From Onchidella celtica (Eukaryota > Mollusca > Gastropoda > Systellommatophora > Onchidiidae), in contig OZ007579.1 in the NCBI GenBank assembly GCA_963931925.1, positions 52,492,757-52,556,756 on the forward strand: a DNA stretch of 64,000 bases. Reading direction: 5' to 3'. Position numbers and translations under genes: made by a program. The notes beneath the pieces were generated by a model, which searched no databases, had not been told where the DNA came from, and saw only the letters and a list, made by a program, of their open reading frames with translations. This document shows positions 50-18,094 of this stretch, one piece after another (position 1 is the stretch's first letter; each line of letters begins with the position of its first letter).

Positions 50-497
50 CTTATACACACGTCTGTCTGTGAAACAATATAAAGTAAAAAGTACAAGTAT
101 CGATGTTTGATATTTCACTTTTCAATGTCCCGAGTGTGAGTATGTGGAGTATCATCCACTTGGTATACACATGTTAGTATAGTTGCTTTAAAGTTACATC
201 TTATTATGTGTAATCTTATTGTCACTGTCTGTGGAAAATATTTCATGAAACCATACAATGCGAAAGGCAATACAGAACTTCCAGATGTGCTCGGCAAACT
301 GACATTCTAATCGCCATTCTTCATAATAGATTATTTATTCATGCACATGTATCCTCCATGCCGGCCTGGAGACGGACAAACTAGTGGAACAAATTCGAGG
401 GCAGCTCAAACATGTACAAGGAAATGGTGGGAATTAAGTAAGGCCAACGTAGAAAAGATGCAAAAACATTTTTTTTCGTTGATTTTTCTGACGAAGG
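46..497. other. no gene seen
   Basis: AT-rich sequence between two repeats. No coding region, splice signal or element end could be supported. Confidence 0.5.
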
Positions 498-1202
498 TCC
501 TTGTGTAGACCGAAAGTTTGTGTAAACCGGAAGTTGTGTAAACCGGAAGTTTGTGTAAGCTGAAAGTTGTGTAAACTGAAAGATTGTGTAAATCGGAAGT
601 TTGTGTAAATCGGAAGTTTGTGTAAATCGGAAGTTTGTGTAAACTGAGAGTTTGTGTAAACCGGAAGTTTGTGTAAACTGAAGTTTGTGTAAATCGGAAG
701 TTTTTGTGTAAACCGGAAGTTTGTGTAAACCGAAAGTTTGTGTAAATCGGAAGTTTGTGTAAACCGGAAGTTTGTGTAAACCGGAAGTTGTGTAAACCGT
801 AAGTTTGTGTAAGCTGAAAGTTTGTGTAAACTGAAAGTTTGTGTAAATCGGAAGTTTGTGTAAACCGGAAGTTTGTGTAAATCGGAAGTTTGTGTAAACT
901 GAGATTTTGTATAAATCGGAAGTTTGTGTAAACTGAAAGTTTGTGTAAACTGAAAGTTTGTGTAAACTGAAAGTTTGTGTCAAGCAAAAGTTTGTGTAAA
1001 CCGAAAGTTTGTGTAAACCGGAAGTTGTGTAAACTGAAAGTTTTGTAAACCGGAAGTTTGTGTAAACCGAAAGTTTGTGTAAACTGAAAGTTTGTGTCAA
1101 GCAAAAGTTTGTGTAAACTGAAAGTTTGTGTAAACTGAAAGTTTGTGTAAACTGAAAATTTAATTGTCTCAAGCAAAAGTTTGTGTAAACTGAAAGTTTG
1201 TG
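498..1202. repeat. minisatellite, ~17-18 bp unit
   Basis: About 40 head-to-tail copies of a unit like GTTTGTGTAAACYGGAA, with point variants (CCGGAA, CTGAAA, ATCGGAA) and one-base length changes. The unit length is not a multiple of three, so long frames open in more than one reading frame on the minus strand with KLSVYTNF-like and FTQTF-like repeats. These look like products of the repeat, not genes. Confidence 0.9.
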
Positions 1203-1267
1203 TTGTTTTTCCTTTTCATGTTTGATTTGCTTGTGACCTGTTTGCTCCTTACTCGAGGCTTCTGGTT

Positions 1268-1358
1268 GTTTTTTCCTGTGTATTTTCCTGTGTATTTTCC
1301 TGTGTTTTTTCCTGTGTCTTTTCCTGTGTTTTTTCCTGTGTTTTTTCCTGTGTATTTT
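1268..1358. repeat. minisatellite, ~12 bp unit
   Basis: Seven to eight tandem copies of TTTTCCTGTGTN just after the longer minisatellite. Confidence 0.85.
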
Positions 1359-1530
1359 TACTTGAGTCCCAGCTCGTCCCCACCTCACAGCGTTTCTTTC
1401 TCTTGTTTGTTTTGATTTTTTTTAAGAGGTAAAGCGACCTTGACCTAGTACAATGTGCACTGACCTTGAGGACAAGGAGAGGATTGGAAGACAACATAAA
1501 TGTAAAACTAGAGATGTACCCTCGCCTACA

Positions 1531-1835
1531 CTCCGGATTAATCACTCAAAATTAGGCAAAAAGAAAAAATACGTTTGGCTTCGATTCTGTACATTTCCTG
1601 TTGAAATCTTTTATTGTTCGATTTGTTTTCACTTGAAAAAGGCGAAAGCCGAAAATTTTGTGTATTTTCTGTCTTCTCTTTAGTTTGCTTTGTATCGTTT
1701 GGGTTTTATTTCTCACGCGGGGCTTTGCAACATACAACTTTTTCTTTTTGCCCAATTTTGACTTTGCTTATAGCCCTGCTGTGACCCCACAGTTTTTCTG
1801 TGGTTTTTATGATAGTCCGGATTAATCTGTTTTAA
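1531..1835. repeat. dispersed hairpin repeat, copy 1
   Basis: The segment 1635-1830 (starting GGCGAAAGCCGAAAATTTTG and ending near CCACAGTTTTTCTGTGG) recurs with high similarity at 12405-12580. Around it, bases 1545-1572 and 1736-1762 form an inverted pair, and CCGGATTAATC occurs at both edges (1533 and 1817). The repeat has no coding capacity. The run GGC-GAAA-GCC-GAAA resembles a decayed hammerhead-ribozyme stem II plus GAAA core. It is probably a short retroelement, but the family is not known to me. Confidence 0.6.
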
Positions 1836-2353
1836 ATAAACTCAAAAGTAAAAAAAAAAAAAGATGATTACTTCTGAACTGTTTGGGACACCTTTGGTGC
1901 TGTGATTTCCTCTTCAGTGTTTGTGCACATCTCGGAGTTCTCGGCCTATACTTTTGCAAATCGCATTTATTTTATAATGTGCTGATGTTGAAAATTGTTC
2001 CACAATCTCTGCCGACGCCCCTGACTGGAGTTAGATCTGAACATATTAATTACTGACATAACAATGCCGTCTCTGCTAATGCTAAACTTAGAACGGTACA
2101 CAAAGTTATATTTAGCTGCATTATCTTTCCTCATTGCACAGATTCTCAACCTGGGTCAAATTTTGTCTACCCTGGAAGCAATTTTCTGACTCTGAATTTA
2201 TACACTGTTATGTATGTTTGTTGTTGTTGATGTTGTTCTTGTTTGTTTTTTAATTTAATTTTTAAAAATAAATTTAAAACAATCTGAAAAAATGGATAAG
2301 AAAATTGAAGCCTACTTTGTGAACGTATTAATAATAATACTGGTACATGTGTA

Positions 2354-2780
2354 TATAGGCCAATTGCGAATGACGTCACAGAGTGTTTTTGTTTTGTTCT
2401 TCCGACACCCAAGATGGCCGGTGGATCAGTTGATTAGTGTAACTTCGCGATATGTCTAAGCGGTCAAAATGCCTGCTGGTTGCATTGCAGTTGACTGTTA
2501 TGTCAGGGGTGGAAAGGATGAATCCAAGCTGGTCAGATTCCCTACCACCCGTGTAAACAAGGGAAAGGAAGTGAAAGAATTGACCGAACGTCCCCCACGT
2601 GCATGTACACACGTGCTATTGTTTAGTAGTGAACTACTTTTAGCTCGCCGCCGGTTGGTTCGCGGCGCCTGAAGTGCTCGCAATGCAAATCAGGTAACGA
2701 ATCAAAATCAATGCTACAATCGCCATAGTGATGCGTCGGTCCTTACATCAAAGATGGCCGGTATTTGCAATGGGCCTATA
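2354..2780. mobile_element. short inverted-repeat element with a THAP-like fragment
   Basis: The left end reads TATAGGCCAATTGCGAAT, and the right end read inwards on the other strand is TATAGGCCCATTGCAAAT. These are near-identical inverted termini about 427 bp apart. AAGATGGCCGGT also occurs directly near both ends (2410 and 2751). The inside holds a short THAP-like coding start. I see no convincing target duplication. A small derivative of a P-like (THAP-bearing) DNA transposon is a reasonable inference. Confidence 0.5.
2469..2672 (+). pseudogene. THAP-like zinc-finger N-terminal fragment
   Basis: A 67-codon frame begins with MPAGC and has a second Cys five residues later, then an RFP motif near residue 24. 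This is the layout of the first half of a THAP (C2CH) DNA-binding domain: Met-Pro start, Cys-x4-Cys, then arginine-phenylalanine-proline. The second Cys-x2-His pair and the conserved Trp are not convincingly present, so the domain is incomplete or continues in an exon not found here. It lies between the inverted ends of the 2354-2780 element. THAP domains occur in host regulators and in P-element transposases, and the setting favours the second. Confidence 0.4.
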
Positions 2781-2785
2781 AATAC

Positions 2786-4022
2786 ATAATTGTCACGAGC
2801 AGAGTTAGGGTCTTGGGGATGTTACGACTGCACGAGAGGCAGCTAACTCACACTCGGACACAACCACACAAGAAAAGTATTAAATAACTAGAGCGTATAT
2901 ATGTCAGGCCGGTCAGGCCATAGTTTACATCAATATTAATAACAAAACAAAAGACAATAGAGGTATATATTCAAACCAAAAAAACTCTAATTAATAACTT
3001 AACCAATGATATTCATGTAACTATGGAGGTACTGCAATCAATAGCAAATAGGTATATTATACGAAACTAGATATCAATTTAAAGTGACAGTTGAGTCGCC
3101 ACTGGCCAGTCGCCAGGCAAACTCTCCATAAATCATATGGGCTTGAATGTTAGGAGAGCCCAGTACGTTCAAAGCCTACAGAAGCACTCTTCGGCTTGTA
3201 GGTAATTTAAGCAGTTGCCAAAAGACTATATTTTATGCACAATCACTATTCAATTCATCAACAATGTGCTATATTATTCCAATCATACTATGGCAATAGA
3301 TCTATGATACAGGACACTCGTGGTCGAGTGCCAGCTGGGGTTTCCTTAGTCTTCCTATGAGGCTGTAGTTCTCTCTCTATCTCCGATCTCTATTATGCTT
3401 GAACAAATAAGATATATTACCATTGGTCACGCCTACTGGTAGTCGCGAACATCAATATAGCGCAGCGTGGGCTTTCAAAGGTCAGCCCACTCAGACCTTT
3501 CTTTCTAGAGCTCAGTCAGTCCGTTAGCAAGGACTTCTTGTCTTCAAAGCACACAGTTCAGGTACTGGTCAACCGGAGATACTTCACGACACGATGCTTC
3601 TGCTCGTCTGTATTCACCAAATCTGAACGTTACACGATGTTTTATACTATCTAACTACCCAGCGTGCTAGTCCGCTGGCCCAATTAGTTCAGCTATCTCA
3701 TAGGTCGAAACCTCCCACCATTTTAATTGTAGTAATACGTCTGCACTATTCTACCAGCCAGTTAACGTGCAAAAACTTGTCTAGCCATACTTAATAATGT
3801 CAACTATCCCCACCTTGTTTCACCCCTACTCCATTACTTATTAATCACGAACATTAAAACCGACAAGCGTGCATCTAACAGTTTAACTTTACATTTATTT
3901 ACTCACCAACTATAATTCGCGAGGGCCGTTCAAGGCCACCAGCCAATTTCTCATGGCCCTGGTAAACAACAACAACTCACTCTCTGCGTGAGTTTTAACA
4001 ACATCTGAATCATGACAATAAT
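2786..4022 (-). mobile_element. solo LTR, copy 1 (LTR 2791-4017)
   Basis: The 1227-bp sequence starts TGTCACGAGC and ends CATGACA (TG...CA ends). It is flanked by the 5-bp direct repeat ATAAT at 2786-2790 and 4018-4022. It is the reverse complement of 50394-51622 with only scattered base differences along its whole length. A 5-bp duplication with TG/CA ends and no internal gag-pol region is the signature of a solo LTR left after LTR-LTR recombination. Minus orientation is inferred from a TATAAAA box in the other copy at 50764-50770. Gypsy-type is likely because of the 5-bp duplication; BEL cannot be excluded. Confidence 0.88.
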
Positions 4023-5044
4023 TATATGGATAAATGTAGTAAATGATCGACTAATGTACACAAAAAAACAACAACTAAATTATCACCTATGTTAATGGCT
4101 TTATAATGGTCGAGGTGTCAACTGAAATTACTGACCAAAACGGTGGACGGTAAATCAACTTAAGGTCTTTGGAAAAGTTGCCACGGGTAAACAGGAGGTG
4201 AAAGGTTGAGAATCCCTGGACTTTTTGTTTCTCTTGCTGAAGGACATCTATTTCCGATCGTATTACGTCAGTCTGCTGGTCTCTGAAGCCGGGTGTTACG
4301 TCATACACTGTCATAACAAAACGCAGAGTTACAAGAGTTACCTCATCACGTGCCAGCAGGGGACTTCAACACTAGGAAAAACTGCCCCACCCAGGATAGT
4401 CAATCACTCATTTGAGTTGATGCCTGGAACAACATTGTGTGCAGTGGACTTCATTTGACTTCAATTCACATGCGTTGAACTTCTCTTGAGTTGATTTTTT
4501 TGTTGTTGTTGTTTTTGTTGGAACCGGCACCGTTACATCATATTCTATATTAAAATAAAACTGTTGTGTTGACTTCAACTGAAGCGTCGCGACGCCTGTG
4601 TTGACTTTGATTTCCTGCCCCATCTTTTATTCCAATTCTTGAACCCCCAACGGATGAGTTGATCTCGATTATCCGACCAAAGAAATTGAGTCGGCACCTC
4701 AACTGTCCGAAACCGACATTCCCCCGTTGGCGAGCAATACAGCTCGCTTACAGGCTAGGCTAGTCTAGTCCTCTCCATAGAGTTTCCCCGTTCCAAGGTC
4801 TCTCGTTGTTTTCACGCACAGTCACACAGGTAGTGAGTCCACGTAGGTGCATACGACTACAAACATGCGATGTCATGGACAATGCCCCTCCCTCCCAACC
4901 CTTCTCCCACGCATACTTCAAAAACACCACAACCCAACAGCAAAGGCAAGGGAACGCTAATAGGCTAGTCTCTAATGCCAGAGCAGGTCTACTACATATA
5001 GGCCTGTGGTCAAGCCAGCAGTGCGCGGGTGTTTTGACTCACAG
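4023..5044. repeat. non-coding; contains dispersed repeat 4575-4865
   Basis: No gene was recognised. Bases 4575-4865 (around TTGACTTTGATTTCCTGCCCC, then ACGGATGAGTTGAT and GTTTTCACGCACAGTC) match 18790-19055 in the same order and orientation with moderate divergence, so this is a copy of an old dispersed repeat. The short frames here have no recognisable product. Confidence 0.5.
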
Positions 5045-5157
5045 CCCACGCCAGTGAACCACTGGTCGGAATCACAACGACTAAGCTTTCAAAGGCTCTC
5101 CTCACACTATTAAAAGGTGTTGTGTCTATATTCGAATTGTTGCTCAACACATATATG

Positions 5158-5792
5158 AGGAAAGTAGGCAAAAAAAAAAAAAGAAACGTTGTATTTGCAG
5201 AGCCCTACGGGTATGGACAAACTGATAAGGGAGACGTTACAAACAAAACATGAATGTAAACAAAATTTACCAAACGAAGTCCAGCATAGCGAATTGCTGG
5301 CCGCAAGCCGCCTGTCGATTTCCACTTAACGTTATAACCTTTCTCCGGTCGCATACCTCTCCGTACAGTGTTGTCTTTGTCTCCCTGTGTCTATGTTTGT
5401 TCCCACCGCCCTTTCCCCTGACCAGTGAAGTTACCAACTTTCCTTTTTTTAACTGTGCGCTTTCCATATTCTTTGTTTTTTTGTTGCTTTATTTTCCCCT
5501 TTTTGTATGTGCCTGATGAATGTCCCAGGGACCGAAAGCTTGCGTGTTTCAATGTAACTATCCAACCGTTCATACTTCCCCAACGTTACCGCTTGCGGCC
5601 AGCAATTCGCTATGCTGGACTTCGTTTGGTAAATTTGGTTTACATTCATGTTTTGTTTGTAACGTCTCCCTTGTCAGTTTGTCCATACCCCCAGGGCTCT
5701 GCAAATACAACTTTTCTTCTTTTTTTTTGCCTACTTTCCTCTTACTCCTAGCCCTACTGCGACTCCCCGCCTGTCGATTTCCACTTAACGTT
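5158..5792. mobile_element. fold-back insertion with 14-bp target duplication
   Basis: TCAACACATATATG occurs immediately before (5144-5157) and after (5793-5806), and the flanking older repeat reads straight through when one copy and the insert are removed. Bases ~5163-5310 and ~5585-5738 are inverted copies of each other, about 145 bp long, with shared landmarks CCAAACGAAGTCCAGCATAG and GGGAGACGTTACAAAC. CTGTCGATTTCCACTTAACG also occurs directly at 5311 and 5771. A duplication of this length suggests a target-primed retroelement, possibly two inverted copies of one short element. Confidence 0.7.
5513..5537 (+). ncRNA. possible decayed hammerhead-ribozyme core
   Basis: CTGATGA at 5513-5519 is followed by a short hairpin (GTCC-CAG-GGAC) and then CGAAA. 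This is the order of the conserved hammerhead core: CUGAUGA, stem II, GAAA. There are extra bases beside stem II, and stems I and III were not resolved. Hammerheads are known in Penelope-like and other animal retroelements. It may equally be a look-alike. Confidence 0.25.
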
Positions 5793-6005
5793 TCAACACA
5801 TATATGCAGTATTATTTCATTTTCTCCTAAGCTGACTACATTGTACATTGTATCATCTTAGAGTTGTCTGTATCTAAGAACCAATTAGAAACAAGCTCTG
5901 AAATGACCTTCGCCCCAAAGTCCACATGTTGGTTCATTAATTGATATGTGGCAATCTGGATGAAACCGTTGTTTAGCGCTTGGGGGGTGTGGCTAGTTAC
6001 ATCTA

Positions 6006-9000
6006 TATACATGTACATATTTTTTATTATTGCGTGTAGTGTGACTTATCTTTTTTGGTGGTGGGGGGGGGGCAAAATATTTTTTTGGGGGGGCAAATTC
6101 CATGGAAAAACGTAGCTTGAAAAATGGCAAAAACCTCCGTGGACAGCGGTGGATTGCTGAGAGTCTGCAAGTTTTGTACAGCTGGTCAAATGTTTTCCCA
6201 CTCAAGGCCTGGACAGAATTACACTCACAATTCTCCTCAACTCCTGTTTTATCAGTTTCACCGGCACTATCAGAGGATGCTCTTTAACCCTATAGATGTA
6301 CTATAAAGTATTCCATATTTGAGTTAGGATTTGGAGAAAGCACGTCCACACGAACAGTCATACTGTGCTAGGAAAAAAGCAAAGCTCGATAGACAGAGAA
6401 TGGCACAGAATGATAAGACAGAAGGAGACCTGACCAGTAGCGGCCATCAAGCATCCGCTCCCATATTAGACCAACATCAGTCATGTACATGTAGGCCTAC
6501 ACGGTTCTAGATTTGGAGCACTTTATAATTTGTCAACTAGATCAACAATTCACCACGATTTCCCTCATTTATACATAATGTATTTTTGCCCGTTGGTTAT
6601 AATTGGAACAGAGCATTCTGCTTAAAATGTTTCACATACATGTACAATCACATTCAATGACTAAACATTTTTCAAACAGCTACCCTTCCCACACCCAAAC
6701 ACACGTAGCCTCACACACACAAAAACATCCCCCCCCCCCCCAACCCCTCAAAAAAAAATCAGCCTAGGGAGGTAACTCAATAAATGATTTGACAAATTGC
6801 TCAATGTTAATTATTAGTTTTTATGTCCCCTGGACATCACGCTAAGCAATGTCACATTGTCATGTACATGAGTTCTCTGTTCTTCTGGCCATCTTCAATC
6901 AGTTTCCTAAGACTCAGGCATTACAGGGTTAATTCTCTCACATACACACATATCCACCCCCACACACACGAAGACAAATGAAAAATGAGTTTGTAAAAAA
7001 TTTCAAAATAGTTTAATTCATTGCAATTTTGACAAGAAGATCATCAATGACACAACATAACATGTCCACGGTCACACTTTACTTTTGCCTCAGCATCCAG
7101 TCATTCAAAAAAAAAAACAACCTTACGGTAAAACATTTGGTGTCCAATCGATCATGCAATGTAGAACCAGAAAAGAAACCAAAAGTTCACATCATGCAAA
7201 TCTACAGACACACAGACAGACATACACAGTGTCCCAAACTTCATTGTTGAATGTACACGCACTGGCACAGTGTAATTCTGTGAAGAACAGTTTGCCAGAA
7301 TTGGTAGACTCAACAAGTTCTGACAGTTTACTAACCATCTGCTCTTTATCCTCCAATCAAGTGATAGGTCCTGTAGAGGACGAAGGACCACATCAGTAAT
7401 TATAATCTTATTTCCACACCTTGGTTCCACAAGTCATTTCCACTAAATATTCTCTTATTCAAGTTACTTACTAGCAGATTTGCACAAGTCAGGAAGTGAT
7501 AAAAATGTCCACAGACATTTTTTTTTTCAGGTTTATATAAATCTCCAGTTACTACCATATCATGCATGTACGCACATAGACACACACTCTCTCTCTCTCT
7601 CTCTTTCGTTGATCATATTTGTTTCTTCACTCATTTTCCTTCATTTTCACCTACAACAAAATCTCGGTCAAGCATGACAAATAAAAAAAAAATGACGGAG
7701 TAAATGATTTAAATAATAGTAAATGTTGGAGATGAAATGAAATCACAGCAGCGCTGCAGAGATGTTTCTGAGAAAGTGTTCCTCTGTAGCACAGTTTTAC
7801 ACAGATCTTTTCACTAGACTTCTGGATGGCAAGAAAGTTAACCTGCAATGTTCTGGAAAAACTGTTCTTCACCATTGGTCTAGAATTCAATTTGACTCTG
7901 TTCTCTTTTGCACAAACAAAATGATGAGACCATTCTAGCAGAGATAGAAACATTTAGCAACATTAAATGATGCCCTGATGAAACCATTTCCACAACCATC
8001 TGTGGTGATGCCACTTACTTCTTCTTTTTTAACATATCATGGTATCACATTTTGCAATGATAATACATGTATGTACATGTAATTTGAATTTTGAACACAA
8101 TAAATGTACGGTCATTTTCAAATATTTGTTCATACCTATGTACAAACACATCGTAGCATCTAAAACGTACAATACACTCTGTGCAGCCCATTTGTCATAT
8201 CTGAAACATACACATATAGATACAAGTGCAACAGGCCAGTTTATACCCCAGACTCTGCCCCACCAGTCAATATTATACCTCTATTGTTTTTGTTATCGAC
8301 AAGTCAAGATCAGTTTATTTCAACCTTAGTTTAAATGTTCTGCATCACTGGTACATGTACCATCTTAACATATGTGCAGACACGATTGTGTTCTTGACTC
8401 CCCGGCCCTAAATCTTATTACAATTAAGAGGAAATAAAAGTCAAGTTTATTTCAATCGTAGTTTAAATTGTTTGCTTAACACCGTCAGGTACCATATTAT
8501 CAGGTACATTACATGCATACAAACATTCTTGACTCCCTAAATAATAATATAATTTAGAGGAAATCAACATGCATTAATTATGCATTGGTAAACAATTGGA
8601 TTGAATATATCCATTCACATTGATATGGTTAGACTTTTATACTAAGTTTACTCGTGTCCGCCGATTTTGTTTTTTTTAATTTTTGGTACTTGGTTGCCCA
8701 TGAGTGAAATCTGCATTCTATTTCTTTGTTTGACACTGACATGCAATAAATTAGTATCAATGTATGAAATAATCATAAGACATAAATATAATGTCATCTG
8801 CATTTTATTTCAATTTTTGAAAATCGGAAACAAACTTCATATTTCAAAACAATTGCATGTACATATAATACACAAGTTAGAAGGATGCAGAGAGAAACAG
8901 CTGGAAAGAATACACAGAGAAAAAACCAAAACAACAGTAATAACCCAACGAACATATTATATTCTTCCATCGTCCATGATCTAATCCAGCAAAAATTAAA

Positions 9001-9371
9001 TATTCCACAAACTAAATGCACACTCGATTTTTTTCACATAATGAACTCCTCCTGTCAAGATACACTTGGAATTTTATAGAAAGCTAACAAGTAATACAAT
9101 AATAAACACCGAGAACACCAAATCAACATATTTACACTTGCAAATACAGAGAAATTTCAATACATGTACATGTATATCAGAATCAGAATCATCAGCCTGG
9201 AATAATATACTTGTACATGTAATTTATAAAGACATAAGAGGTAATGTAAAATGACCTTGTACTGTAGGCTACACATCGATCAAGACTATTATATGCAGCA
9301 CTAATTTATAGATCAAGTTTATACATATTTAAAAGTGCTGCTTTGTATTTTTTATGAATTGCTATTTGAAC
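6006..9371. other. no gene seen (3.4 kb)
   Basis: AT-rich sequence with homopolymer runs (6063-6072 G, 6730-6742 C), CA-rich stretches near 6700 and 6950, and a short (CT)n at 7586-7604. Frames here are short, without recognisable domains or a consistent exon pattern. I could not support any element ends. Confidence 0.4.
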
Positions 9372-10503
9372 TTAACTCTTTAACGACGAGAGGACGGTCC
9401 CACCGTCCAGTGCCTCTGCTACGTGATGTCGAGCGGACGCTCCGATCGTCCGATGCGAATACATGAAAATACCATGCGAAATGTTTCTGCTACGCAATAT
9501 TTAGGCCAGTTTTGACCCGGAAGTGGTAAACCTATCTGCGTTTGATGCTTTCTTTGGTTTCTTCTTTGTGTTTGGGCGGATTGTTTGAAGTTTTAGACTG
9601 ATTTCTGTACGTGCTTCACAACTCCAACAACAAAATGGCGAATAGATCAAGACGTCTTACAGTACAACAAACTATGGACTTGTTTCGGACTATTGATATT
9701 TCAGATGCTGATTGTAGTGACTCGGAAGGGGCTGGTTGTTCAGGTGATGCTAGAATGAGATCCAGGCATCGTGGTGATAGTGATAGTGATGATAGATCCA
9801 GTAGTGTGAGTGAGTCAGATTCATCAGACTCATCAGCTGATTCAGGGGGGGGCGTTACCCCAGACTCAGCCTGGACCTAGTGCGGCCAAAAGGGTGAGAA
9901 AAACAGCAGCAGTTGGCAGAGGGGCACAGGATAATGAGTGGAAAGAAGTTGAGCGAGGGTCCGAGGTGAAAACTGGAGCAGCTTTTGCCTTCCGTCCGAG
10001 AAACCGGAGGCCATGTGGGGTGAATGCTGATCTTGATGAGCAGTCTACTGCAATTGATTGCTTTGCCACTCTGTTCACAGAGGATGTGGCAGAGCTGTTG
10101 ATTGATTCAATGAATTCCTATGAGCCTTTGCCAAAAGGTGGGGTTTTTTACGTATACCTTATAAAACTGGTTCCTACGGCAGTTTAGATAACACCAGAGC
10201 ATTGAAATTTGGTATATGTCTGCATAAGATGATGTTTAAGCTGTGGGGGCAGACCAATAGCTATGAAGGTGGCAGGAGGAATTCTGCAAACGTTTTTGAT
10301 CATAAAATATGTGTATTTTTAACGCAAGAAAGGTGACATTTTCAGATCGGCATTTTTGTGTCGTGGAATTTTAACAACAACAAATACATTGAGAAGTTCG
10401 TGGTTCCACGGGTTATCAACGAGAACAGTCTTTTATATTGTTCTACATCGAGACATGCGAAATAATTCGCGATTTTTGGTTTGTGAGCGTTAGAAAATTT
10501 TCA

Positions 10504-11728
10504 CTTTCGGACATAACTCGCGTCGTCACTTCGTGAATCAACTTCGGTACACCGTAACTCTCTTCCGAATGCATGTTGAGGGCCCCGGAACGAGCATTGT
10601 AATCATTCAATACTTGCACTTTGTCCACAATGATTTTGAAGCACCGATCTTGATGTTTACTTCCGTTATCCTCGATCCCGGGCTATGACCTATTTCGTCG
10701 TCACGAGTTATGTTCGGAAGAACCAATCAGAAATCAAGTAAATTTTACTGCGGACAACTCGTCATTGTCTGTGTTGATCAACAACTGGTGCCGCTCGTGT
10801 TTTGCGGAACAAACTCTGTGCAGGACGATGAATTCGACGGATTCAGGTAAGTTTTCTTTTGTCGTCATCACTTATGATATTGTTATGTTCGAAAGAGTTC
10901 CTAAAAATGTTATGTCCGAAAGCAGTTTTTGACATATTATCAAAATGCAAACCATGTTTCAATGAAAATCGCCTGACAACACAGTGACCTACATTCGTAA
11001 CCACGTGCTTGGCTGTTCGCCAGGTCGAATGGAGTAAAAGTAGTGATATACAGTGATGAACTTTTCCAAAATGACGACATCAAGAGTGTCGTCATTGTTA
11101 TGTTCAGAAGATTAAATAAGAAAGTTATGTTCGAAAGCACATTTAGGCAGTAGTTAAGATTGTACCATGTGGAATGAACGCTAGTCGGCAATAAGAAACA
11201 TTTATTTATGTCACACATTGCAGGGCTATTTATAGATATGTCGCAATGACAACAACAGCAAGTGTCATGGATGAAATGGGCCAAAATGACGACGCTGAAG
11301 TCGTCGTCATTGCTATGTTCGAAAGATTGCCCTATGATGTTATGTTCGAAAGCACATTTATGCATACTATTAAAGTACAAACCAACAGAGGTGAATGTCG
11401 ACCGGCAATGGGAAACCTTAATTTATGCCACACATTGCAGGGGCTATTTTTATAGATGTCAAAATGACAACAATAACATGTAGGCCTATTAGTAGAGGTG
11501 AAATGGATCAAACTGACGACACTGAGGTCGTCGTCATTGTTATGTTCGGAAGATTGCCGTTGTTCAAAAACACATTTGTGCATATTATCAAAGTACAAAT
11601 CAATAGAAGTGAACGTCTGTCGGGTATGTCATACTCAGGGTTATTCATAATGACAATAACCCCGTAGGCCTGCTGCTGAAATGTGTCAGATTGATAGATG
11701 AATTTGTCGTCATCGTTATGTTCGAAAG
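10504..11728. repeat. left array of GTTATGTTCGAAAG motifs
   Basis: The motif starts at 10504 (inverted), 10707, 10882, 10909, 11097, 11124, 11312, 11339, 11539 and 11715. Variants are GGAAG, CAGAAG and TCCGAAAG. From about 10880 to 11700 it sits in a degenerate ~200-bp tandem unit that also contains ACATTTATGCATACTAT-like and CACACATTGCAGGGCTATTT-like pieces. Most copies are preceded by GTCGTCATTGT. Exons 1 and 2 flank the array. Repeated subterminal binding sites for the transposase are the likeliest role (inference). Confidence 0.8.
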
Positions 11729-14700
11729 AAAAATATTCTGGACTTGTTTTTAAGTTTGTTGCTATTGCTCCAGAGTGCTAATTTGATTGAAACTGCTCTG
11801 CAATCAAAGTTCATTTTAACCCTTTCCAGGCCCAGCCATGCTGCCCAAATTTTCAACCTAGCCCTTCCAGGCACAGCTGTGTTGCTATACTTTATAATTT
11901 TAAATAAATCTAGATCCTTTCCAGGCCCAGTCGTGCTGCCAAACTTTTCAGTTACCCTTCATCCTTTTTTTTGACACAATGTAAAAATTTTATCATTTGC
12001 TCTTGAAATCTTATATCTCTTACATTCTCATTTTCAGACACACTGCCAAGAACCAGAGCCCCTAGCAAAAGAATAGAACTCAAAATTGCCACGTCCACCC
12101 TGCCAAAAACGAAGAAATCCAACAAAGAGTATTTGCAGAAACACAGAGATGCCATAAAAGCTGACGAGCAGAAGTACAAGGCTTTCTGCAAGACCGAGAG
12201 TGAAAGGATGAAAAGGCAGCGAGAGAACTGGTCAGATGAACAGAAACAGAGACATCGTGAGCTCCAGAGGGAAAGGCAGAGGAAATACAGGTAAGAGGCA
12301 TAAAAAAGAAGTTTTACAGTTGAGTCCACTTAATTCAAATTCACTGTGACCACCCCTCAGAGTTCTAGAAACCAGAATTTGACTCACAGTCACTATGCAT
12401 TATAAAAGGCGAAAGCTGAAAATTTTGTGTATTTTCTGTCTTCTTTTGTTTGCTTTGTATCGATTGGGTTATTTCTCAGGCAAGGTTTCGCTATAAACAA
12501 CTTTTTCTTTTTGCCCAATTTTGACATTGCTTATAGCCCCGACGGGACCCCACAGTTTTTCTGTGGTTTTTATGATATTTCGTCAATTGGGTCAGAGGTT
12601 AATGTACACTCTGCTGCCAGGATACTTGATTATCGATCAATATTTTGGCACCCCCGAGCTGTCGTGTGTCACTTGACTCTTCCCTCCATTGTCTTATCAG
12701 CTGTGATGTAATTAAAACACACCTTACTTATTGCACTGTTTGGCACCACGCAAGAAGGGCATCAGGAAGCAATTTTACCTCTGTGACAGTGCTGACCAGA
12801 AATAGACGTCACTGACTTCTTGTTATGCAAAAGCAAATTAAATAATGTTTGTCTTTACTCTCTATATTTTCAGAGAAAGGAAGAAGCAACAAGAAGAAAC
12901 ACCAGTAGAGCTTGCATCTCCAAGGGTGACACGGCATATGAAAGACGACCAGGCGAAAAGACGGGAGAGTAACAAAGTATCCGCAAAGAAGATGAGGGAC
13001 AATTACTCACATCAGAAAAGGCTGGCAGTAAATAAAAAAAGACAGCAACGCTACTGGGAGAAAAAGGAAGAAGCAATGCAAATGTCCACACCAACCCATA
13101 GCTCATTCCAATCAACAACATCACGAACACGTGCATCACCACGTCCAATTGCAACATCAACTCCAGTACAAGAAAACGATAAACACGATGCACCATATCC
13201 AACATATGCCTCATACAAGTCAGCTGTTTATCGAATGAGACAGAAACTGGGGAATATGAAAGGAGAGCGAATGGCTCAGACACTAAAGGGCATCATCAAG
13301 GCTCAGGACACACCAACAAAAGCAGCTCTTAGAGCACTAGATGTTTGCATTTCACCTGCCTCTGCAAAAATAAAAAGTGCTGTTACAAATGTGGTCAAAG
13401 ACTTGTCCAGCCACAGAGACAAAACTTCGATTGCTACAAAACGTAAGCTCCTCAGCTCATTCCCCGAGGATATAAGAGCTAACTTTCAGCCCCAGCAAAG
13501 AAAAACCCCAAAATCACTGAGTACATTGTACTCAAAAAAGTGCCCAAAGAAGGAGATAGTGGAAGAATGTCTTCTTCAATTTGCAAATTTTCTTCCCTCA
13601 AAGAAGACAGCCTCTGCTAAGACAGAAGTACAAAAACAAATTTTGTCGGAATCTGTATCCAGCATACACAAAAAAGTTAAAGCCAAACACAATGTCTCCC
13701 TCAGAACACTCTACAGACACAAACCCAAACACATCATTTCATCACACAAAGCCAAGTTCAGACAATGCCTATGTGATATATGTTTCAATGCTCAGTCAAA
13801 GATGAGAACTCTGAATATGTTTTTGACTGAAAAGTTGGATATTTCAGATATGCTGTCTATGTCAATGTGTAAATCTGAGCAGTTGCCCCCAATTGATTGT
13901 GTGAAGAGAAAATGTGGACAGTGTGGATGTGATAGTGTGAAAGATGAATTTATTAGAAAGTTTGAAGACAGGCTGGAAACTCGTGTTTCGTATTCTTCTT
14001 GGAAGATGGTAAAGGAAGGTGGGAAATCGAAAATGGAGAAATTATTACAAAGAGTTACTTTGCGGGAACTACTGGATGAACTGTTTGCTGAACTGAAACC
14101 GTTGGCCCTTCATCAGTTTAACAGTAGATGGCAAAGAGACCAGTATAAACTGTTGAAGGCCAACATCCCTAAGGAAGCAGTTTTGCTGACTCTTGACTTT
14201 GCAGAGAATTATCTTTGCAAAGTACAAGATGAAGCTCAAAGTGCTTACTGGTCGTACACGCAGGTAACTGTGCATCCAGTAGTTGCCACATTTAAATGTC
14301 CATTATGTAATGACAACATTGTTCATCATCTTGTCTTTTTGAGTGATGATTTAAAACATGACTCACATATTGTAAATATTTTCTACAAGAAAACGTTGTC
14401 TCATTTAATGTCATTTATGAGCCTTCAGAAAATATTTATCTTTTCTGATGGTGCAGCAAGTCAGTATAAGTCAAGAACACCATTTTACTATCTTGCCAGC
14501 TCTACAGTACCTGCTGAGAAGGTTTTCTATGGAAGTCGACATGGGAAGAGTGAGTGTGATGCTGTTGGGGGCACAGTTAAATCTTTGCTCACCACCCTGG
14601 CAGCATCACAACCCTCTCTTATCATGAAAGATGCAAACTCTGTATTCCAGGAATGTCTTCAGAGATTCAGAAAATGTGAAGAGGGTGTTTGTGGTTTTCC

Positions 14701-15295
14701 TCATAAATCAAGAGAATTTTTTTTAGTCAAGTCGGAAGAGGTGGACCGGACTGAACTTGAAAACATCAAAGCAATTCCTGGAACACGGAGTTTACATCAT
14801 ATCAAGGTGGTAGCCAAAAACACTTTTGCCACAAGGAAACTGGCCTGTTTTTGTGGTTTTTGTCTCTCACAAGAGGGCACTGAATGTGAAAACAAAGAGT
14901 GGGTAGATGAATGGGAGTTTATTAAAATGAACGGAGCAGCAGAAAGTGAGAGTGAAAATGATGAAAGACAGGATATTGAAAATACAGTTGAGAATGCTCC
15001 TGAAATAGAGAGTGTACCAGCAGAAAAGATGGGTGAAAGAATAAAAGTTGGATCATTTTATCTTGTCCAATGGCATGGCAAGGATTACGTTGCCCAGGTA
15101 AAAGATAAAGACGAGTCACTTGCCAAAGTGAGCTTCATGAAGTGGAGGAATGGGCAGTTGATGTGGGGTGACGATGACTTTTCTTGGGAAATGTTCGATT
15201 GCATTGGCCCTGAGGTGAAACTAACCCTAAATGAAAGAGCCAGCAATCAAAGAGTTCAAGTTTTTACCTATTCTTTTATTACATCTTTTTTGTGA
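10828..15295 (+). CDS. putative DDE-like transposase, 3 exons, 897 aa
   Basis: Exons 10828-10846 (ATGAATTCGACG...), 12038-12290 and 12874-15295 join in phase at GT/AG sites (CAG|GTAAGT, TTTTCAG|, CAG|GTAAGA, TTTTCAG|) into 897 codons with no internal stop. The first ~170 residues are strongly basic and probably helical (Lys/Arg/Gln/Glu-rich). Cysteine pairs follow: KRKCGQCGC (~residue 435) and FKCPLC (~565). The later part has three acidic motifs in the order of an RNase H-fold transposase: LTLDFAENY (Asp ~532), FSDGAASQYK (Asp ~616) and GKSECDAVGGTVK (Glu ~651, Asp ~653). The C-terminus holds a ~50-residue segment rich in Tyr/Trp (VGSFYLVQWHGKDYVAQV), perhaps a small Tudor-like fold. It lies between the TGAGCC ends, so it is most likely this element's transposase. 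The motif assignment is inference. Similar uncharacterised proteins are common in invertebrate genomes. Confidence 0.75.
11812..11945. repeat. three copies of CCTTTCCAGGCCCAG
   Basis: CCTTTCCAGGCCCAGCCATG at 11820, a variant at ~11867 and CCTTTCCAGGCCCAGTCGTG at ~11917, about 45-50 bp apart, within the first long intron of the transposase gene. Confidence 0.7.
12405..12590. repeat. dispersed hairpin repeat, copy 2
   Basis: Strong match to 1635-1830, from AAAGGCGAAAGCTGAAAATTTTG through CTTTTTGCCCAATTTTGAC to CACAGTTTTTCTGTGG. It lies in intron 2 of the 10828-15295 gene, so it entered after this transposon formed or was carried with it. Confidence 0.75.
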
Positions 15296-15304
15296 ATTTC
15301 CAAA

Positions 15305-16041
15305 TGGCTATTTTCGCCATCATAGTTATGTTTGAAAGATCACTTATAATCATACATTAAAGGTTGTTTAACTGCTTGTTCACATTAACTGATTAAGTGT
15401 GTGTGAAATTCTAGGTGTTTATGTGTCCATGATTTTCAAGGCACCTGTCAATGTGTCTTATTGATTCAAAGCTACTGGCTTTTTTTTGTCAACATACAGT
15501 TACAGTAGTTATGTTCGAAAGATTACTTATAATCATACACCAATAAAGGTCATTTAATTGCATGTTCACATTAACTGATTAAGTGTGTGTGAAATTCTAA
15601 ATGTTTGTTTCCATGATTTTTCAAGGTACGGGTCAATTTTTCTTATTGATTCAAAGGTTTTTGGCTATTTTTGTCATCATAGTTATGTTCGAAAGATTTG
15701 TTGCAATTTTGCCCAATTCAAATTTAAACATGAATAAAGTGGCATTATTTCATCATAAATATGTATTGTGAGTCTAATTCAGCCTTCTGTATGTTAATTT
15801 GTCCCAGTTGTCAATACAGAAATTGAATCATAGAAATGTAAAGTTTTTTACTTTTTTCGTACATAACTATGATGACACAAATGGAGACTTACAAGGTATT
15901 TAGATTTTTTTTTTTCCATGTCCCTCTTTATTTTATATCCTCTATGTATGCATGTTTCAAAATAAAATCAATTAAAAAGCTTCAAAATAATTTTTGTTTG
16001 ATCTATTTCTAAAAATGTGTCATCATTGTTATGTCCGAAAG
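15305..16041. repeat. right array of GTTATGTTCGAAAG motifs
   Basis: The motif starts at 15325 (TTTGAAAG variant), 15508, 15682 and 16028, with a weak inverted copy at 15851. The first three sit in a ~180-bp tandem unit that repeats CACTTATAATCATACA, ACATTAACTGATTAAGTGTG and TTCCATGATTTTCAAGG. The array begins right after the transposase stop codon. Confidence 0.8.
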
Positions 16042-18094
16042 ATTTTGAGTTTTCATTACATAACGCCATGTATACGACTAAGCAGGTCCTCTCTAGGTCT
16101 ATAACCACATAATATTGTTGGAGGAGATATGCATGAATATAAAAAGTCTGGTAACACAGATGTGTTAAAGGACTTACTATCTACCATCAGTGCAACATTT
16201 CAGGTACCCACCTCCTGGCAAAGGCTCCTATGCACAGCATGTGATGAGGAAAAACAACCCAAGCAGAAAGTGGTCTAGGTTGTCCTCAATAGAGCCTGTC
16301 ACCATATATGAACTTCGAAAATTCATCGCCATGACAACTGCAATGGGGCTCAATTCAAGACCTGAAATCCGAGACTATTCAGCATTTCACACTCCATTTT
16401 TTGGTCAAATGTTCACGAGGGGCAGATTTGAAACACTTTATTCAACAATCTTACATGTGGCAGATCCAGAGGCACCCGGAAAGGAAAAGATTGAACCCTT
16501 CATCAATCTCCTCATTGAAAAATTTATCGACGCTTTTACGCCATACGACAATGTTTCAGTGGATGAAATGGTAGTCGGATTCAAGGGCCGCTTCATGTAC
16601 AAGCAATTCAATGCCTCAAAGCCCAAGAAACATCATATAAAAAGCTTTGGACTGGTAGACAGTGCAACTGGATATGTGCAACCTACTTACCTATTACGGA
16701 GCCAACACTTCGTACGATCCAGTGTCTGACAGCGATTATCAGGGAGGGAACTCTGAGAAGATATTCACCACCTTTCCCAAAAACATTGGCAGCGGGTACC
16801 ATATTTACGATGACAGGTGGTATACCACAAGACAGCTGCTGGAATTCTTGCTCCGCAATGAGTATTACTACACTGGCACAGTCCAAAGAAATCGTGTAGG
16901 CTTTCCTGCTGCCGTCAAGACCATGACCAATCGCACCCTCAAACACCAGGAATCCAAGTACTGGTTGTCTGAGAACAGCCAGCTTCTCTTCTGTGCATGG
17001 CAAGACAAAAAGGCCAGCAAACCTGTCCTCATGGTCTCAACCAAATCAGAGGAAGGTGGCACAACAAGAAGGGGAAAGAATAAGCCGTTAGTCATTGATG
17101 AGTACAACATGCGAATGAATGGCTGCGACTTAGCTGACCAAATGGTTGGCTACTATAACATGTTCAATCGCAAAACAAGAAAATGGTGGGAAAAGCTGTA
17201 CCATTGGATTATAGGTACGTCTTGACAAGGCCAGAAGGTACCAAACGCCGTGATCTGAGTATGCGTTCCTTCAAGATGCAACTCATCGAACAGCTTACCA
17301 AGGCCGCTGCTGAAATCACTCCTCACACCATCACCCCATCACGGAAGGCTGTTGGAAGACCAAACCCTATTGAACGCCTCGAAGGCACCAAGCATATGAT
17401 TCTCTTTGTGGGACGTGATCGACGCTGCCAAGTCTGCAGTAAGCCCGGCGACAAAAAGCGATCCAGCTTTGTGTGTGAAGGATGTGAAGGTCAACCCCAC
17501 CTTCATCCTAAGGAATGTTTCAAAATATGGCACACTCAAGCAAATCTGTCATAAGGCTTCCTGTATGACCTGTGCATAATTACTGTATATATATCTGTGT
17601 AAAAAAGTGTTTTCCAACTTCACTGACAAGTTTCACTCTTTTTTGGAATTTTTCTGTATAATTTCGTGATCTCATATAACCTCAAATTCAAACCTCTGGA
17701 GTAGGTATGATATGAAATTGTGGCAAAACTCTTATTCATATTGGATTACTAGTGGATTACCTTGCAAATAAGTACTTTGACATCCTTATGAAGTGGATTT
17801 AGCTACACATTATGCAGGTTAGAGTGTGTGTCATGTCCTAAAAAAAATCTTGTTTGTCTTTTTCTTACTATCCTCTATGTTCAAAATCTTTTTTCAAGCT
17901 TTCTTCACATCCCTGTCATGATATTAGTCAGAAAGAACATTCAATTACCTTTAATTTGATGTATAATTCATGTGTTTAGGATGCTTTTTAATTGTTCTAT
18001 GGGCATTTTTGTGACATCACTGTGAATCCATTTTGCGCCCTTGTGAAATAATTACGACGAAACATGGAAAATAATTCCGTCGTTAAAGAGTTAA

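Follow-up and report, generated by a model that had tools for sequence, protein, structure and literature searches.

The locus studied here raises the question of what kind of element has interrupted a piggyBac-like transposase gene in the mollusc Onchidella celtica, and whether that element belongs to any named superfamily. The window, a stretch of 64,000 nt, lies on contig C13 of a 1.14-Gb genome (OZ007579.1, positions 52,492,757 to 52,556,756). A first-pass annotation, made from the letters alone, had proposed an undescribed DNA transposon group with TGAGCC ends, a TA duplication and a spliced 897-aa DDE-like protein, and overall this interpretation is supported. We give a probability of roughly 0.8 to the reading that the element, here called family F1, is a complete DNA transposon with a DDD transposase, and that it stands for an animal group which, at superfamily level, differs from those named groups that were testable. 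In kind it is a DDE/D transposon, separate at that level as far as tested.

The element has moved, and its boundaries can be read to the base. When it is removed from the flanks together with one TA, a single uninterrupted frame results (...LLIDSMNSYAQHVMRKNNPSRKW...), and the right flank matches Pfam DDE_Tnp_1_7, in agreement with the proposed insertion into piggyBac coding sequence; the left flank alone gave no Pfam match at E <= 0.1. Apart from the insertion, the reading frame of the host gene (window 9602-17554) is also broken farther downstream, and a genome search for the insertion site recovered no second DNA copy of it. Inverted ends are present as described, the arms 10119-10142 and 16207-16230 (24 nt including the TA) being 88% complementary, and the terminal inverted repeats (TIRs) are imperfect: they agree at 19 of their first 22 positions, the outermost one being mismatched. 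F1 ends read TGAGCCTTTGCC, with TGAGCATTTGCC at the right end of copies L041-L043. The TGAGCC terminus is found at the right ends of L009, L010 and L011, but the window copy reads GGAGCC there and L041, L042 and L043 read TGAGCA.

We counted target duplications in the 13 copies with both ends, which belong to five families (six in F1, one in F6, two in F8, one in F9 and three in F14); single-end copies, such as L041, L044-L047, L049, L051-L053, L055 and L056, were excluded. An exact 2-bp duplication flanks all 13, being TA in eight, TT/AA in four and TC in one, so that the proposed TA duplication holds for the window and for most copies, but TA is preferred rather than required. For three of the copies with TA, TATA would fit as well. 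At the window junction no exact duplication longer than TA was found when sought up to 10 bp. A 6-bp duplication, CCTATG, obtained when the right end of the window copy is read one way, was rejected by the other 12 copies, where exact duplications exist at 1, 2 or (TATA) 4 bp only. The termini are 5'-TG..CA-3' in 12 of the 13, the window's right end being the exception, and the one readable end of L056 differs in its terminal base. Ends of the other families are TGAGCCATTCTC (F8), TGAGTCATTGCC (F9), TGACTCATTGCC (F14), TGAGTCATTCTC (F6) and, from one end only, TGAGCCATTGTC (F4).

Empty sites agree with these junctions. Copy L010 of F1 was inserted into a repeat. When its flanks are joined with a single TC (180 nt), the resulting sequence aligns uninterrupted with 13 other places, seven exactly over 1-180, and two at 100% and four at 99% over 2-180; the remaining two of the 15 rows are its own halves. 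The ends and the 2-bp duplication are therefore fixed, joining was staggered by 2 bp, and TA is not needed. The repeat that hosts L010 (C18:24608754-24615042) has at least 14 near-identical copies and may be a young mobile element in its own right. For L048 (F8), one paralogous site matches the joined flanks end to end at 84%, with gaps (188 bases against 180). For L060 (F6), 39 of 41 rows are repeat matches at 77-85% that cross the junction, the other two being its own halves, and for L057 (F14) the left flank was covered only by its own halves among the rows found.

The genome search suggested by the annotation thus recovered ends, full copies and empty sites. The exon-3 product has at least 58 matches at E <= 0.001, a lower bound as 56 of 1146 candidates were scored, and at least five of them, the window included, are full-length at 99-100% with no stop. 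Movement of F1 is recent, because the four full-length alignable copies (window, L010, L042 and L043) share 99.3-99.98% pairwise DNA identity. Other F1 copies are more diverged with the frame split in two (L009), lack the left part (L041) or are internally deleted to 590 bp with both ends kept (L011). Distant families F4, F8, F9 and F14 each have several near-identical copies (98.4-100% over the main alignments). Furthermore, the pattern TGASYCATTSYCAAAW has 642 genome matches against 22 for the reversed control. Among the first 100 matches listed, neighbours closer than 12 kb form 25 convergent pairs, no divergent and two same-strand ones, with recurring lengths near 1.65, 3.57, 6.4 and 10.5 kb; the convergent pairs near 1.65 and 3.57 kb on C1 and C2 suggest non-autonomous derivative families.

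The three-exon gene has GT/AG borders and consistent phase, as had been described. Homology spans the exon 2/3 junction (P0011, 6e-11; P0134, 1.5e-9; P0125, 2e-8), in a stretch that is basic and strongly biased (for P0011, bias 24.5 at a score of 35.8), and exon 1, with no homolog support, is the least certain. This is the one long open reading frame (ORF) of the element, the remaining ORFs being of 160 aa or less. The product is predicted to adopt an RNase H-like DDE fold with its acidic residues in canonical places, as the annotation had anticipated. The three acidic motifs that it listed are all present, with D532 in DFAENY, D616 in SDGAASQYK and D653 in SECDAVGG, but the third catalytic residue is D653 and not the glutamate two places before: E651 was rejected since E occurs there in 7 of 92 aligned rows, against D653 in 92 of 92. 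The spacing from second to third aspartate is 34-41 over these rows. Just before the catalytic domain lies a Cys-rich module, probably zinc-binding, with six positions Cys in 82-88 of the 92 rows and the position of C394 Cys in 33 and His in 53. The modelled C-terminal barrel is SH3/Tudor-like by appearance.

Neither the protein nor the ends gave a tie to any named superfamily that was testable; the annotation, likewise, had been unable to place the protein. The 897-aa product had no match in Pfam or NCBIfam and, over its catalytic part, none by sequence in PDB; PHROGs gave two weak matches, of unknown function there (best E 0.0071). When 45 members were searched against Pfam at E <= 0.1, 17 families were matched with no catalytic transposase model among them, and one member matched Zn_Tnp_IS91 at 0.085. 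A second profile search retrieved 24 proteins and again no tie to a named transposase family. IMG/VR and GTDB genome contigs yielded 13 and 12 pattern-matching stretches, none confirmed as a relative, and Foldseek against viral models returned nothing at E <= 0.001. Mos1 and SETMAR were among the best structural matches of the predicted fold; in the Foldseek PDB rows Hermes (hAT) had E 0.05 and TM 0.09-0.13 and ranked under several unrelated folds, and absence from such rows does not exclude a superfamily.

Comparison with named groups rests on features taken largely from individual passages of the sources. ISL2EU shares a 2-bp AT-rich duplication with the element, as do other PHIS elements. 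However, the ISL2EU passages in PMC4482050 give AT within A|AT|T, termini that are usually GG and a second ORF with YqaJ in most, whereas we find TA, TT or TC, TG termini and one long ORF. Fungal PHISTA has a TA duplication (PMC12730594). For PHIS as a whole, with 0-3 bp duplications and a Harbinger-type transposase, the 2-bp length found here is compatible. No Harbinger model, by what we take to be its name, was among the Pfam matches of the 45 members. The CMCT group (EnSpm/CACTA and allies) is described with 2-5 bp duplications, TA in ESTA (PMC12730594), with C(2)C and H(3-4)H in the interval from the second D to the last E, and with ends that are CA..TG in most cases; in our alignment CxxC between the second and third aspartates occurs in 0 of 92 rows, and the ends are 5'-TG..CA-3'. 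PiggyBac and Kolobok duplicate TTAA (4 bp), unlike any 2-bp duplication seen here, and KDZ (Zisupton, Dileera, Kyakuja) duplicates 7-8 bp (PMC12730594). At least one tested defining feature fails for each of ISL2EU, CMCT, piggyBac/Kolobok and KDZ, and likewise for ITm and Ginger1, considered below.

Outside the scope of the first-pass annotation, the five sister families whose C-termini were read (F4, F6, F8, F9 and F14) carry an OTU-protease-like module C-terminal to the transposase. In all five, DGNCxxR and a later W..NH are seen by eye; [DG]GNCxxR occurs in 22 of 120 homologs, and [DG]GNC was sought in the window protein and is absent. F9 alone passes the Pfam OTU cut-off of 23.3 bits (26.1), with F4 (15.8) and the homolog P0015 (19) falling short and F6, F8 and F14 giving no match in this search; at E <= 0.1, 11 of the 45 members matched OTU. 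The profile of alignment A3 matched OTUD1 in PDB (7.6e-5) and, weakly, A20 (0.0043), OTUD3 (0.036), OTUD7B (0.044) and OTUD5 (0.057). A quick tree was built from 131 rows, 13 of the 144 having been excluded for too little coverage; in it all 26 OTU rows, F8 being labelled by hand, fall inside one 50-row group with support 88. The window family has probably lost the module, because it is placed within this group, beside P0001 (no motif, but 481 aa only). The OTU label changes 11 times on the tree, at least seven of them forced by well-supported branches; losses, truncated records or regains are therefore frequent. P0107, an OTU-less homolog, has its best genome match at C7:37546595-37547845 (E 6.3e-58, 204 bits, the window family reaching at most 119), which suggests that OTU-bearing and OTU-less lineages coexist in the host genome. 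The source of P0107 and P0123 is a Sedimenticola bin, in which they are probably animal DNA. It could equally prove right or wrong that the group is an undescribed superfamily of animal DNA transposons defined by DDD(34-41) transposases that share the conserved stretch H-G-K-x3-D-x6-K, 5'-TG..CA-3' termini and 2-bp AT-rich duplications with TA preferred, and comprising two main lineages, one of them with a fused OTU deubiquitinase-like module lost again in the window family.

The strongest alternative is that the group is already catalogued in Repbase or Dfam under some name, which we regard as possible, if somewhat against the odds. Homologs occur in Hydra, Bemisia and molluscs, whose repeats have been mined for long. 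Against this, though none of it covers Repbase, searches of 5.39 million open-access papers turned up no account of the group, none of the 120 listed homologs has a Pfam domain, and the source names seen are 'uncharacterized', 'hypothetical' or 'unnamed', apart from P0075 of Bemisia, whose UniRef name 'Cc8L18.2-like protein' could not be traced to its origin. We consider it unlikely that the element is a highly divergent branch of ITm (Tc1/mariner, pogo) in which the TA target is relaxed and large domains have been added, as in the long pogo transposases. An RNase H-like core, a third acidic residue at a spacing of 34-41, which falls within ranges given in published passages on ITm, a 2-bp duplication with TA preferred and a long Mos1 alignment would fit such a distant tie. 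However, five of 13 copies carry TT/AA or TC, the TC being backed by 13 empty sites, a Cys-rich module and a C-terminal barrel are present, and no model that we take to belong to ITm was among the Pfam matches.

More doubtful still is an integrase-like (rve/Ginger-related) origin, which would account for TG..CA termini, the Cys-rich module, the RNase H core, the barrel at the C-terminus and the OTU module. Structural rows also point this way, although the rank of retroviral integrases among them is weak evidence because many are in PDB. Yet no rve model (Gypsy-type integrase core) was among the Pfam matches of the 45 members, the third residue is D and not E, and the duplication is 2 bp where that of Ginger1 is 4 bp. 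The integrase-like fold and the OTU-like module of the sister families parallel Ginger1, which carries an OTU module (PMC2836005); in Ginger1 a C-terminal OTU or Ulp1 is found, whereas the window protein has no OTU motif or Pfam match. Finally, the possibility that a domesticated or captured host gene happens to lie between inverted repeats, which an intact spliced gene might suggest, is refuted by the same gene and ends at several loci, the exact duplications and the empty sites.

The dispersed motif noted in the annotation is confirmed within the window but proves specific to F1. GTTATGTYCGAAAG has 15 sites at <=2 mismatches against 0.95 expected, all within the element, and genome-wide there are 38 exact occurrences of GTTATGTTCGAAAG, of which 35 fall by coordinates within F1 copies, against 11 for the reversed control. 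A group-wide motif, GTTATG-N(2-6)-GAAA, was rejected, with 12 occurrences in F1, four in F14 and none in F4 (counted with one end missing), F6, F8 and F9. Subterminal repeats of other families measure 194 bp x 4.1 (F4), 164 bp x 2.6 (F14) and 234 bp x 3.2 and 173 bp x 12.3 (F9); in F8 and in F1 the tandem-repeat program reported no repeats, and in F6 only one of 18 bp, although F1 does have subterminal repeats (Table 1). In the F9 copy L054 (element 366-9428), a satellite-like array of 12.3 x 173 bp with 96% match lies at element 6866-8982.

For a transposon of the proposed group, the transposase would bind the ends (TGASYCWTTSYC) and perhaps also the subterminal motif arrays, which may be accessory binding sites. 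The metal-binding triad D532/D616/D653 would cut the element out and insert it at AT-rich sites, preferably TA, through joining to target bonds that are 2 bp apart; repair would leave the 2-bp duplication. Excision, and so cut-and-paste rather than copying, is what we infer, because no excision site was seen. In the sister families the OTU-like module would perhaps shield the transposase or repair factors from ubiquitin.

Table 1. Coordinates of the F1 element, its host site and the related OTU-like modules (window positions unless a locus is named).
Feature	Position	Strand	Basis
Whole element, family F1	10121..16228, 6108 bp	+	TIRs, 2-bp duplication, near-identical copies at other loci
Target duplication TA, left copy	10119..10120	.	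junction comparison
Target duplication TA, right copy	16229..16230	.	junction comparison
Left TIR, TGAGCCTTTGCCAAAAGGTGGG	10121..10142	+	19/22 positions agree with right end
Right TIR, terminal base variant GGAGCC	16207..16228	-	compared with other F1 copies
Interrupted piggyBac-like gene, left part (frame)	9810..10118	+	continuous frame once joined
piggyBac-like gene, right part, several frames	16231..17554	+	Pfam DDE_Tnp_1_7, 3.4e-21 and 7.5e-18
Exon 1, start codon, 6 codons and one base	10828..10846	+	splice and phase test
Exon 2, basic N-terminal region	12038..12290	+	splice and phase test; homology across exon 2/3 junction
Exon 3, bulk of 897-aa transposase, stop codon 15293-15295	12874..15295	+	ORF, splice and phase test
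Cys-rich module before catalytic domain (C389, C391, C394, C423, C433, C438, C441)	13766..13924	+	alignment, 92 rows
Catalytic D532 (D1) codon, just after strand b1	14195..14197	+	D in 91/92 rows, one gap; model
Catalytic D616 (D2) codon, just after strand b4	14447..14449	+	D in 92/92 rows; model
Catalytic D653 (D3) codon, start of helix after b5	14558..14560	+	D in 92/92 rows; model
Small C-terminal beta barrel (predicted)	15056..15166	+	model strands 728-764, block pLDDT 74-84
5' subterminal repeats of ~215 bp with GTTATGTYCGAAAG, 10 sites at <=2 mismatches	10504..11728	+	
3' subterminal repeats of ~180 bp with GTTATGTYCGAAAG, 5 sites at <=2 mismatches	15325..16041	+	
OTU-protease-like module C-terminal to transposase, F9	L051:3632-6721		above Pfam cut-off
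OTU-like module, F4	L044:3613-6654		motif
OTU-like module, F14	L057:2918-6043		motif
OTU-like module, F6	L060:3648-6797		motif
OTU-like module, F8	L048:3074-4066		motif

If this reading is true, 'uncharacterized' and 'hypothetical' proteins of molluscs, Hydra, whitefly and other animals would be transposases, and they would gain ends and a target defined in one host genome. An active element may exist for study, because several near-identical F1 copies have open frames. Besides Ginger1, the group would furthermore be another example of a transposase fused with an OTU-like protease module, and comparing relatives that have the module with those that lack it would allow the role of ubiquitin removal in transposition to be tested.

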